A stretch of 64,000 nucleotides of DNA, from the NCBI RefSeq assembly GCF_022539405.1, contig NZ_CP054394.1, positions 2,798,501 through 2,862,500 on the forward strand, in the 5' to 3' direction. The translations under genes were made by a program, and so were the position numbers. Positions 40,136 to 44,068 of the stretch are shown here, piece by piece (position 1 is the first letter of the stretch; each line of letters opens with the position of its first letter). This DNA is from Natranaerofaba carboxydovora (lineage in GTDB: Bacteria > Bacillota > Natranaerobiia > Natranaerobiales > Natranaerofabaceae). The notes below the pieces were generated by a model. It was given only the letters and a program-made list of their open reading frames with translations, was not told where the DNA came from and did not search any database.

Positions 40136-40304
40136 TATTTAACACCTCCACAATTTAACCTACCTCTATTCTTATTCAACTTATTTTGTTAAAATCCTAT
40201 TTAGAAAAAGATTTTTCTTTAGATTATTTTGCTAAAGGTTTTGGACCTTCTAATGAAGAATATATTAACTAATAATGGGGCAGGAGGGAGGGAGAGAGAT
40301 CATC

Positions 40305-40529
40305 ATGGATAAGTTTGTTGATGCCTTAGGTGAGATGTGCCCTATACCCATCATCAAAGCTGAAAAAGCATTAAGAAAGCTTGGGCCAAAAGACACAGTC
40401 GTATTAGAAACAGACCATAGCTGCTCAATTCAAAGTGTCACCAAGCATTTCGAAGAAAAATATAATTATTCCTGCAGTATAGAGGAAATAGATGTTGGTA
40501 TATGGCACATCAAAATAACCAAAGCTTAA
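40305..40529 (+). CDS. TusA-family sulfur (selenium) carrier protein
   Basis: A 74-residue protein with the TusA signature Cys-Pro-x-Pro (GEMCPIPIIKAEKAL) and a standard beta-alpha-beta-alpha-beta-beta fold. TusA-like proteins carry persulfide, and some partner with YedE transporters in selenium metabolism. ATG 40305 follows a GGAGGGAGGGAG run; an ATG ten codons upstream reads through that run and is unlikely. It lies convergent to a LysR gene and near a YedE gene. Confidence 0.9.
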   Translation: MDKFVDALGEMCPIPIIKAEKALRKLGPKDTVVLETDHSCSIQSVTKHFEEKYNYSCSIEEIDVGIWHIKITKA

Positions 40530-40573: not shown

Positions 40574-41500
40574 TTAACAAAAGCCTCTTTCATCTGAAAT
40601 TAATAAATCAAAAAATTGTTTAGTAATTCCTTCTGATATGTCCTTAGGCTTATAAACCATTGTAAATGTATGCGGGAAATTAACATCTTGTAATTTTATA
40701 ATTTTTAGGGTTTTGTGTCGAATCTCTTTCTTGATTGCCATCCTTGGCAAAAATGAAAGGCCCTTATCTGCAGATACAGCAGAAATAATAGATGAGATAT
40801 TATTAATTTCAAGAACTACGTTCAAGTCTTTTAATGAAATATTTTGATCAGCTAAGTTTTTTTCTATGGTAGCCCTTATACCTGAACCCTTTTCTTTCAA
40901 TATCAAGTTATATTTAGCCAGTTCTGAGACGGTGATGTGGTCCCTATCTATCCATGGTTCTTTATATGGAGCTACAAGTTCAATATAGTCATTTCCAAGG
41001 CGTTTTAAGGCCAAGCCTTCGTTCGTCAGTTTTTTTCTTAACTCGGAGCTAATTGGACCTTCTATAAGGCCCATTTGAACATTGCCATCTAGTACCTGGT
41101 TGATAACCTCAGGTGAGTTATAAACATCTAGATCAATTTCATTTTTGGGGTATTTTTCCTTAAAAATATAAATACTGCACGGCACAGCATAACCACCAAT
41201 AGTATTTGATGCTGCTACTTTTAACGTCTCTTGGTTAGAGCTAGCTAGATCATTTATTTTTGATTCTATATTAGAAAGTATATTTAGAAGTCTTCCTCCT
41301 TCTAGGTATAATATTTCGCCGGCAGGAGTTAAGCTAACACCTTTTGTAGTTCGATTTAGAAGAGGAGTCTTAAAGTACTTCTCTAAATAATTAATCTGTG
41401 AACTAAGAGCAGGTTGACTGAGATGAAGCTCCCTAGAAGCTTTTGTAATGCTTCCTTCTTCAACAACGACCATAAAAGCTCTTATAGTTTCTAGGTTCAT
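40574..41500 (-). CDS. LysR-family regulator (selenium-metabolism type, likely)
   Basis: A 308-residue LysR regulator: N-terminal winged helix (MNLETIRAFMVVVEEGSIT, ASRELHLSQPALSSQINYLE) and a periplasmic-binding-like effector domain. It is transcribed divergently from the YedE-type transporter gene with 46 bp between the starts, the typical setting for control of that gene. ATG 41500 follows AAGGAGG by 7 bp; the longer frame would run through the shared promoter. A specific LysR group goes with yedE/tusA in selenoprotein-making bacteria, and membership is inferred from position. Confidence 0.88.
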   Translation of the reverse strand: MNLETIRAFMVVVEEGSITKASRELHLSQPALSSQINYLEKYFKTPLLNRTTKGVSLTPAGEILYLEGGRLLNILSNIESKINDLASSNQETLKVAASNTIGGYAVPCSIYIFKEKYPKNEIDLDVYNSPEVINQVLDGNVQMGLIEGPISSELRKKLTNEGLALKRLGNDYIELVAPYKEPWIDRDHITVSELAKYNLILKEKGSGIRATIEKNLADQNISLKDLNVVLEINNISSIISAVSADKGLSFLPRMAIKKEIRHKTLKIIKLQDVNFPHTFTMVYKPKDISEGITKQFFDLLISDERGFC

Positions 41501-41546
41501 GGATGTTACCTCCTTAATAATAAAAAGTACAAAGGAGAGTTGTTTT

Positions 41547-42674
41547 TTGAAAACACTCAAGGAAAACAAAGCCACAAATTCTAAAAAAGCTCTAATTTAT
41601 ATTATAACAGCTATAATCTTTTATTTCATAGCAAAATATAATTATATTATATTTTTTGGCATTTTGCTTGGTTATACCATGCAAAAATCAAGGTTTTGTT
41701 TTACTGCTGCTTTTCGTGATTTATTTCTCATAGGAAACACCAGCTTGTTTCGTGGACTAATAATAATTCTATTCTTAAAAACTCCTCTCTTCGCATTAAT
41801 ATATCAATATTCTAGCAGCAGCTTCAACCTATCACCTGTTGGGCTATGGACTATAATTGGAGCAGTTTTGTTTAGCATGGGAATGGTTATTGCAGGCGCT
41901 TGTGTAACTGGTAGCATGGTTAGATTAGGAGAAGGCTACATTATGCAGCAATTTTCTTTACTTGGTATACTTCTTGGCTCGGTCTTTGGAGCATTTCATG
42001 TTTCTTTCTTTGAAAGAAAGTTTATGTTTGGTCCAGTTTTTATCCCAGAATACCTAAATTTAACTTTTGTTGTATTAATCCAACTTTTTATTTTGGCAGG
42101 GTTGTTTATAATCTCTCTTTGGCTAGAAAGAGGCAAAGAAGCTTTAAGTATTAGTGCTATCAAAAATTCACTAATATTTTCATTCCCAAAAGATCCATGT
42201 AAAAAATTCTGGCCTTATAATATGGGTGCGATATTTATTGTAGTTATCATGTCTATAATGTTCTTATTATACGGCACCCCCTGGGGCATTACTACCTCTT
42301 TAACCCATCTTGCCGGCGGTATAGCAGGACTTTTTGGAATTGACATCTCTAATTGGAGTTTTTTTGGTTATGAAAGTTTATTTGCCCATCCATTGATTCT
42401 TGTTAATTTAGGGATTATCCTAGGTTCATTTTTGAGTTCCTTTTCTTCATCTGAATTTAGAATTAGAAAGCCAAGATCGTATAAATTCATTATTTCAGGG
42501 TTAATGGGCGGAATATTAATGGGTTATGGTGCCAGGCTTGCTGAGGGCTGCAATATTGGTGCTCTAATAAGTGCTATACCTTCTTTTTCCCTTCATGGCT
42601 GGGTATTTATGTTTTCTTCATTTATTGGAGCTTATATAGGAAGTAAAATTTTACTATCCTATTTAATTGAATAA
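41547..42674 (+). CDS. yedE: YedE/YeeE-family transporter (putative selenium metabolism membrane protein)
   Basis: About 375 residues, with about ten membrane helices. Conserved family motifs: QKSRFCFTAAFRD, GMVIAGACVTGSMVRLGEG and, in the second repeat, GYGARLAEGCNIGALIS, each with a Cys in a Gly-rich loop. YeeE/YedE proteins move thiosulfate or a reduced sulfur or selenium species in concert with a TusA protein; one is encoded 1 kb away. The start is TTG 41547, 9 bp after AAAGGAG; longer frames run into the LysR gene. A terminator follows at 42832-42871. Confidence 0.85.
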   Translation: MKTLKENKATNSKKALIYIITAIIFYFIAKYNYIIFFGILLGYTMQKSRFCFTAAFRDLFLIGNTSLFRGLIIILFLKTPLFALIYQYSSSSFNLSPVGLWTIIGAVLFSMGMVIAGACVTGSMVRLGEGYIMQQFSLLGILLGSVFGAFHVSFFERKFMFGPVFIPEYLNLTFVVLIQLFILAGLFIISLWLERGKEALSISAIKNSLIFSFPKDPCKKFWPYNMGAIFIVVIMSIMFLLYGTPWGITTSLTHLAGGIAGLFGIDISNWSFFGYESLFAHPLILVNLGIILGSFLSSFSSSEFRIRKPRSYKFIISGLMGGILMGYGARLAEGCNIGALISAIPSFSLHGWVFMFSSFIGAYIGSKILLSYLIE

Positions 42675-43130
42675 TATTTACCAACACCATTTTACCAAAC
42701 TTTCACACAATAATTCAAAAAAAAATGTTACAGAATTATTACAGACAATTCAATAGTGAAAACAATAACATTTTGTTATAACTCTTTCTTATTGTTATAT
42801 AAGTTCTTTATTGAAGCATTTTTTTAACTGTGCTCCAGAACGCCTATACCACAGGGGTTTTGGAGCTTTTTGCATTAATTTAACCCTTTCAATACCTTCC
42901 GCGCTTGTTCTTGATACCCCTTTCACAACAATCATTTAGCGGTTATAATATAGATAAATGTTATAAAAGTTCAATTTTCTATCGAAAAATACTTTTGTTT
43001 GTAACATTTAGAAATTGGACTCCAATAAAAAGTTAGAACCAGTTAAGTTAATTGTTAATCAATAACCTTGCAGTAACCTTGTTAGAATTTTTTTTAAATA
43101 CAAAAAATTAAGTTATGGGGGTGGATAGAG
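42675..43130. promoter_or_regulatory. Intergenic region ahead of the split-Soret selenocytochrome gene
   Basis: About 456 bp without a gene. It holds a small perfect palindrome ATAACA-TTT-TGTTAT (42765-42779), the terminator at 42832-42871 and then about 250 bp that should contain the promoter and leader of the cytochrome gene. I could not fix a promoter. The last bases provide a GGGGGTGG ribosome site. Confidence 0.5.
42832..42871 (+). terminator. Rho-independent terminator after yedE
   Basis: Arms GCTCCA and TGGAGC with further inner pairing (AA/TT, CC/GG), followed by TTTTT. It separates yedE transcription from the cytochrome gene. Confidence 0.8.
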
Positions 43131-43967
43131 TTGAGTAAACTCAACAGAAAGAAGTTTCTTAAAACTGGCGGACTTTCGCTAGCAGCACTTGCTTTTGCAC
43201 CAACAATTGGAGGTTGTGGTAAAGATACCCCAGCAGCTGATCCTGCTGACGAGAAGGAAATTGATGTTCCTGAGTATCCTTTTGAAGGTCTAGTTAAGAT
43301 TGATGACCTTGACTATGTTAAGCAGCGTGCATGGGATGGATACAAAGAAGGTGGATGAGGCTACGGTGCTGCCGAAGGGACCTTCGGCATACTAGCAGAA
43401 GAAGTAGGATATCCGTTTGACCAGATTGCAACAAAAATGTTCTGGCCTTTTAGAGGAGGACTTAGCGGTTGGGGATCGATCTGTGGTGCAATACCACCAG
43501 CAGCAGCTTTCTTAGCAGCTATTGCTGAACCAGATGATCACATGGATCTAACCCAGGAGTTAATGGCATGGTATCAGCAGTTCCCATTCCCTGAGACTCA
43601 GCTTGGCGACACAGGGGAGCTACCACAGACACCTGTTAATTCTAGTCTATGTCACGTATCCATCACAAAGTGGATGGTTTATGCCAACAAAGAACATGGC
43701 ATGGATATTGAAAGTAGAGGAGATGATAGAAGAGGAGATAGATGTGCTGGACTAACTGCTGACGTTGCTGCTTATACTATCGAAATGATGAATAAGTTTA
43801 TCGATGGTGAGTTTGAAGTAGTACACACTCCTGCTGAAGTAAGAGATGACTGCATGGCTTGTCATGATGATACCGGTGGTAATCACGACTATGCTGCACA
43901 TGGGCAAGAAGACTGCACTGAGTGTCACACTGATAAGTGGGAAGACTACACAGAAGATCATCCATAA
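43131..43967 (+). CDS. Split-Soret-type dihaem cytochrome c with selenocysteine (UGA at 43356-43358)
   Basis: 278 residues if the in-frame TGA, codon 76, is read as Sec. The two halves are exactly in frame and the stretch between has no other stop. N-terminus: RKKFLKTGGLSLAALAFAP, a Tat-like leader, then IGGC, a lipobox-like Cys. Around the TGA: KEGG-U-GYGAAEGTFGIL, where split-Soret/C_GCAxxG_C_C proteins have Cys, and downstream GGLSGWGSICGA. Two haem c motifs, CMACH and CTECH, lie near the C-terminus. The start is TTG, 6 bp after GGGGGTGG. In Desulfovibrio the family binds two haems and an Fe-S centre; the Sec probably replaces a cluster or redox Cys. Terminator follows. Confidence 0.9.
43371..43388 (+). 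promoter_or_regulatory. SECIS-like hairpin of the split-Soret selenocytochrome
   Basis: GCCGAAGG-GA-CCTTCGGC, an almost perfect palindrome; realistic folding gives a 7-bp stem GCCGAAG/CTTCGGC with loop GGAC. It starts 13 nt after the UGA, so the apical G lies about 20 nt downstream, inside the range for bacterial SECIS elements. Confidence 0.75.
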
Positions 43968-44036: not shown

Positions 44037-44068
44037 ATAACCGGAAGGTCCCCACACCTTCCGGTTAT
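44037..44068. terminator. Terminator between the selenocytochrome and thiI
   Basis: Perfect 12-bp stem ATAACCGGAAGG/CCTTCCGGTTAT with loop TCCCCACA, followed on the plus strand by TATTTTG. It lies between convergent genes and probably ends the cytochrome transcript; it may also serve thiI. Confidence 0.88.

Follow-up and report, generated by a model that had tools for sequence, protein, structure and literature searches.

Split-Soret cytochrome c from Desulfovibrio desulfuricans ATCC 27774 (PDB 1h21; NCBIfam model NF047622) has two C-terminal CxxCH haems and four conserved non-haem cysteine positions; its structure has been solved, but we know of no established function for it. Four conserved cysteine positions also characterize the C-GCAxxG-C-C family (PF09719; TIGR01909, described as a '(seleno)protein'), whose short PF09719 members retain all four cysteines and have no haems. 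A 2026 review of prokaryotic selenoproteins includes C-GCAxxG-C-C forms 1 and 2, ExtKL and an octahaem cytochrome (PMC13188914). The word Soret is absent from this review, and its C-GCAxxG-C-C selenoproteins are known by PF09719 and an accession alone (WP_012158890.1 and MGD8741185.1), so one of them may be a split-Soret relative. The ExtKL and octahaem tetrathionate-reductase-family proteins place selenocysteine (Sec) in a c-type cytochrome, as proposed here, but fall under different protein families and domain models (PMC13188914, PMC1914089). An earlier note on the DNA studied here had considered Sec beside c-type haems to be unusual; these listed selenoproteins show that it is not unique.

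A second group of described systems concerns transport. According to the available portions of the two papers, YeeE (TsuA) and its TusA-type partner YeeD (TsuB) carry out thiosulfate import and decomposition (PMC11073785), while SoxT members are sulfur importers and a YedE-like protein has been linked to selenium transport in Methanococcus (PMC11582611). The locus described below resembles both in having a YeeE/YedE transporter that adjoins a TusA-type partner, and it differs from both, as described in those portions, by the presence of a cytochrome.

We analysed a 64,000-nucleotide stretch of the Natranaerofaba carboxydovora genome (the window), in which two open reading frames, 43131-43358 and 43437-43967, are parted by a single TGA. 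The earlier note had joined them into one split-Soret dihaem cytochrome gene with an internal Sec codon, and the coordinates and the read-through frame agree with that proposal. The gene's features are as follows.

43118..43125, + strand: probable ribosome-binding site GGGGGTGG upstream of the TTG start, from sequence
43131..43967, + strand: gene for a Sec-containing dihaem cytochrome of split-Soret type, 278 aa including U76, from a TTG start to a TAA stop
43131..43220, + strand: predicted signal peptide, Tat-like NRKKFLK and lipobox-like IGGC (C29), from the sequence and its relatives
43356..43358, + strand: TGA, very probably the codon of selenocysteine 76, in the column of the first C-GCAxxG-C-C cysteine
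43370..43389, + strand: bacterial SECIS-type hairpin, 8-bp stem, GGAC loop
43482..43484, + strand: C118 codon; this second non-haem Cys, within SICGA, is conserved in 58/58 homologues
43650..43655, + strand: codons of C174 (58/58) and H175 (probable distal haem ligand, 56/58)
43743..43745, + strand: codon of C205, fourth conserved non-haem Cys, 58/58 homologues
43851..43865, + strand: haem c motif CMACH (C241-H245), from sequence and homologue alignment
43914..43928, + strand: haem c motif CTECH (C262-H266), from sequence and homologue alignment
44037..44068, + strand: intrinsic terminator downstream of the cytochrome gene

Translation of the frame from 43131 to 43967 yields a single internal TGA, at codon 76, and no other stop, and both CxxCH motifs lie downstream of it. 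The window has five TGA-joined frames in which each side spans at least 60 codons. Two of them were checked: this frame alone proved to be a gene, and the longest of the others (706-1731) was set aside for lack of a family match.

The product is a relative of 1h21 by sequence (phmmer, E = 1.7e-30) and by fold, which bears out the proposed split-Soret identity. Its AlphaFold model (mean pLDDT 73, pTM 0.74) retrieved 1h21 as the sole significant match in a fold search (E = 3e-11), and the split-Soret trait of two CxxCH motifs with a further conserved histidine is present. NF047622 was the top NCBIfam match (6e-43), although the score of 147.2 bits lies below the cut-off of 400 of this narrow equivalog model; the product also departs from the D. 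desulfuricans protein in having Sec for Cys. The Pfam family PF09719 was matched at 45.4 bits against a cut-off of 27, with one of the four conserved cysteine positions occupied by Sec, while TIGR01909 was missed (22 versus 47.4 bits) and, unlike classic C-GCAxxG-C-C members, the protein has haems. Among the PF09719 matches listed, none with an internal stop was found.

We then compared 58 distinct homologous sequences, with relatives drawn from genomes of the window's phylum. The earlier note had anticipated Cys or Sec at position 76, and the column contains nothing else: 38 sequences have Cys and 20 have UGA, while C118, C174 and C205 are invariant. The UGA is shared by a paralogue in the same genome (45% identical) and by the closest relative, from genome G002 (55%); protein similarity runs on past the TGA into the downstream part, and UGA occupies the same column in other families of the phylum. 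In a tree computed without the U76 column, 11 UGA genes, the window's included, group in a single deep all-Sec clade with full support; the other nine are scattered, and at least five changes between Sec and Cys are required. Because 11 of the 20 UGA genes belong to one clade, the 20 are not independent events. The paralogue (L022/L072; G000:C1:1874785-1875612) has no YedE-TusA at its side; its neighbours are a response regulator gene and one resembling a sensor kinase. One genome (L082, G210) has a tandem array of four Cys-form split-Soret genes within about 4.3 kb. A gene inside the window's Sec clade (L009, JAGUZX010000115.1) comes from a record titled as a Desulfovibrio MAG; a phylum search around its genome returned the window's phylum, and the title is probably wrong.

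The SECIS-like hairpin that had been noted at 43371-43388, 13 nt after the TGA, is real, extendable and common to most of the UGA genes. Its strands GCCGAAG (43371-43377) and CTTCGGC (43382-43388) enclose a GGAC loop that begins 19 nt past the UGA and, as in bacterial SECIS elements, contains G; the stem extends to 8 bp. The loop starts 18-20 nt past the UGA in 15 of the 20 UGA genes (14 directly and L078 from its fold), while the Cys genes have no hairpin at the corresponding place. L081 is able to form the same stem (GCCGAC-GGUCU-GUUCGGC), although the programs picked another fold. Over the 47 nt after the codon, UGA genes have a mean folding energy of -15.2 kcal/mol and Cys genes one of -7.9 kcal/mol (Mann-Whitney P = 4.6e-8, a value made optimistic by near-copies among the genes). 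In a 15-row alignment, which leaves out L080 (a near-copy of L077), L030, L079 and two genes of L075, the stem shows compensating changes with a covariation score above those of all 500 shuffles, and sliding the stem partner lowered the paired cells from 78% to at most 60%. L030, L079 and the two genes of L075 have a hairpin further downstream with an AGUU loop. An Rfam scan of the cytochrome gene gave no meaningful match, and coverage of bacterial SECIS elements is not expected there.

The genome contains selA, selB, selC (tRNA-Sec) and selD, the four genes that the earlier note had named for a check. Its selD (G000:C1:464891-465826, L038) likewise carries an in-frame TGA, downstream of which lies a GTAAGTCC-GGA-GGACTTAC hairpin, and so counts as a second Sec gene; the GGAC loop of the window gene and its paralogue resembles this GGA loop. 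All 15 genomes with UGA forms have tRNA-Sec and three genomes without it carry Cys forms, a test that is weak but consistent since 22 of the 25 Cys genomes also have tRNA-Sec. Two or three above-cut-off tRNA-Sec genes are found in several genomes (G309, G345, G385, G381, G284, G234, G369, G034 and G004).

The predicted Sec76 replaces the first of the four conserved cysteines of the C-GCAxxG-C-C domain. In the 58-homologue alignment, two rows have Ser in place of His175. The UGA relatives L014 and L081 have lost both CxxCH motifs and H175 but keep U and the three cysteines, and the short PF09719 proteins have all four cysteines with no haems; therefore, Sec belongs to the C-GCAxxG-C-C site and not to the haems. 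The earlier suggestion of a Sec ligand or redox residue by the haems is thus redirected to the four-cysteine site, and its haem-ligand part was dropped as unlikely.

For the possible Tat lipoprotein export that had been suggested, the signs are mixed. A lipobox-like IGGC is present, most relatives have SRRKFL, and the first Arg of the Tat-like motif is kept in 57 of 58 homologues; the window protein has R-K rather than R-R. The same genome encodes TatC and ResB, and a tatC gene neighbours the cytochrome gene at five of the Sec loci and at one of the Cys loci.

Just upstream of the cytochrome gene lie the YeeE/YedE, LysR and TusA-like genes of the window.

40275..40529, + strand: TusA/YedF-like sulfurtransferase, a conserved neighbour
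40574..41575, - strand: LysR-type regulator, grouped with L074's PF03466/PF00126 protein; the gene probably starts near 41500
41448..42674, + strand: YeeE/YedE-family sulfur transporter (PF04143), a conserved neighbour; exact start uncertain
42832..42873, + strand: strong terminator-like hairpin and T-run between the transporter and cytochrome genes (-21.4 kcal/mol)

The trio of YedE, TusA and LysR genes, which the earlier note had not mentioned, recurs next to the cytochrome gene at 7 of the 10 loci of the all-Sec clade; of 21 Cys loci taken as a control, 8 have it. Three members of the all-Sec clade, namely the paralogue and those of G002 and G369, have no such cluster, and the partnership is therefore not obligatory. 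In L078, L081 and L077, two half-genes make up the YeeE/YedE transporter, and tusA lies between the half-genes in L081 and L087.

In the limited literature collection covered, we found no paper that joins a split-Soret cytochrome with selenocysteine and no description of the cytochrome-YedE-TusA-LysR cluster. Catalogues of selenoproteins already include C-GCAxxG-C-C proteins and other cytochromes; what appears to be new is the Sec split-Soret form and, more so, the gene cluster.

On balance, the best overall explanation is that the locus encodes a Sec-decoded, exported dihaem cytochrome with a selenol/thiol site and a link to sulfur-species uptake. The sequence comparisons give strong support to the structure of the gene and to the Sec assignment, while we infer the export, cofactor and substrate of the product. 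Under this mechanism, 43131-43967 would be one selenoprotein gene in which SelB and tRNA-Sec, under the direction of the 43370-43389 hairpin, insert Sec at the UGA at 43356. Its product would be exported, probably in folded form via Tat and with a lipid anchor, and two bis-His c-type haems would be attached outside the membrane. Sec76 with C118, C174 and C205 would form a selenol/thiol redox centre, to or from which the haem pair would supply or remove electrons. A labile Fe-S cluster of the kind reportedly proposed for split-Soret cytochrome c may be bound there too. Judging by the conserved neighbours, the site would act on extracytoplasmic sulfur species (thiosulfate, polysulfide or similar, and possibly selenium species), from which the sulfur would then be imported by the YeeE/YedE-type transporter and passed to the TusA protein.

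The first step of this mechanism, decoding of the UGA at 43356 as Sec, is almost certainly correct when weighed against its alternatives. One alternative is that the TGA is a real stop, in a pseudogene, through an error in the sequence, or as the end of a truncated product of 75 residues followed by an independent downstream frame. In its favour, gene callers would give two frames, and an internal ATG is available at 43437. Yet no ribosome-binding site lies upstream of that ATG, the downstream part has no signal peptide and hence would have no haem attachment, and neither the continued protein similarity nor the recurrence of TGA in the same column of 20 homologues, the paralogue among them, and in other families of the phylum fits a stop, which makes this reading very improbable. 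It is just as hard to credit that UGA specifies a residue other than Sec, whether Cys or Trp under an altered genetic code or one inserted by near-cognate read-through. Homologues do have Cys at the position, but UGA is an ordinary terminating codon for 12 of the 48 frames of at least 150 aa in the window, the Sec machinery is complete, the hairpin is specific to UGA genes, and UGA forms are confined to genomes with tRNA-Sec.

The chemistry and the role of the site are less certain. Sec76, C118, C174 and C205 probably constitute a redox-active four-residue Sec/Cys site. Alternatively, Sec76 could be mainly a selenolate ligand of an Fe-S cluster that performs electron transfer only, and not a catalytic selenol. 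Abreu et al. in 2003 reportedly observed an EPR-visible Fe-S centre in split-Soret cytochrome c that was lost in the crystal, and the 1h21 structure reportedly has no such cluster, which counts against a ligand role. In its favour are the invariance of the four Cys/Sec positions, the title of PDB entry 1h21 ('a novel iron centre') and a possible Tat export that suits cofactor insertion in the cytoplasm. The repeated Sec/Cys changes on the tree, however, suit the general rule that Sec substitutes for redox-active Cys (PMC1794560), and we regard the ligand-only role as unlikely. For the redox-active site, a partnership with sulfur-species transport has about even chances, and the cytochrome would carry out a redox reaction of sulfur (or selenium) species outside the cytoplasm that is linked to the YeeE/YedE uptake route. 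Instead, the cytochrome could serve arsenate, nitrate or oxidative-stress chemistry, with the sulfur-transport genes merely frequent neighbours: one Sec split-Soret gene (L076, G080) adjoins an ArrA/ArrB-like molybdoenzyme with a TorD-like chaperone, another UGA member (L086) lies beside a CoA-disulfide-reductase/DsrP-like set, and D. desulfuricans ssc responds to NO. The presence of YedE, TusA and LysR together in 15 of 31 loci examined, in the Sec clade and among Cys loci alike, leaves such another role plausible but doubtful. Against the overall explanation stand the terminator-like hairpin between the transporter and cytochrome genes, the R-K of the window protein's Tat motif, and the lack of a phenotype in split-Soret mutants of D. 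alaskensis (PMC4215793).

Returning to the preferred link with sulfur uptake, a more speculative extension is a widespread, as yet unnamed uptake module. Its exported dihaem cytochrome, with a selenol/thiol site, would do the outside redox step for YeeE/YedE and TusA, and Sec would sit at, and perhaps be a ligand in, a four-residue Fe-S-type site. That many lineages have Sec for the first cysteine of the site suggests that the protein does its work there. The gene group is at risk of annotation as two broken pieces, and its conserved YedE-TusA-LysR(-TatC) neighbourhood provides a concrete, testable lead to function.
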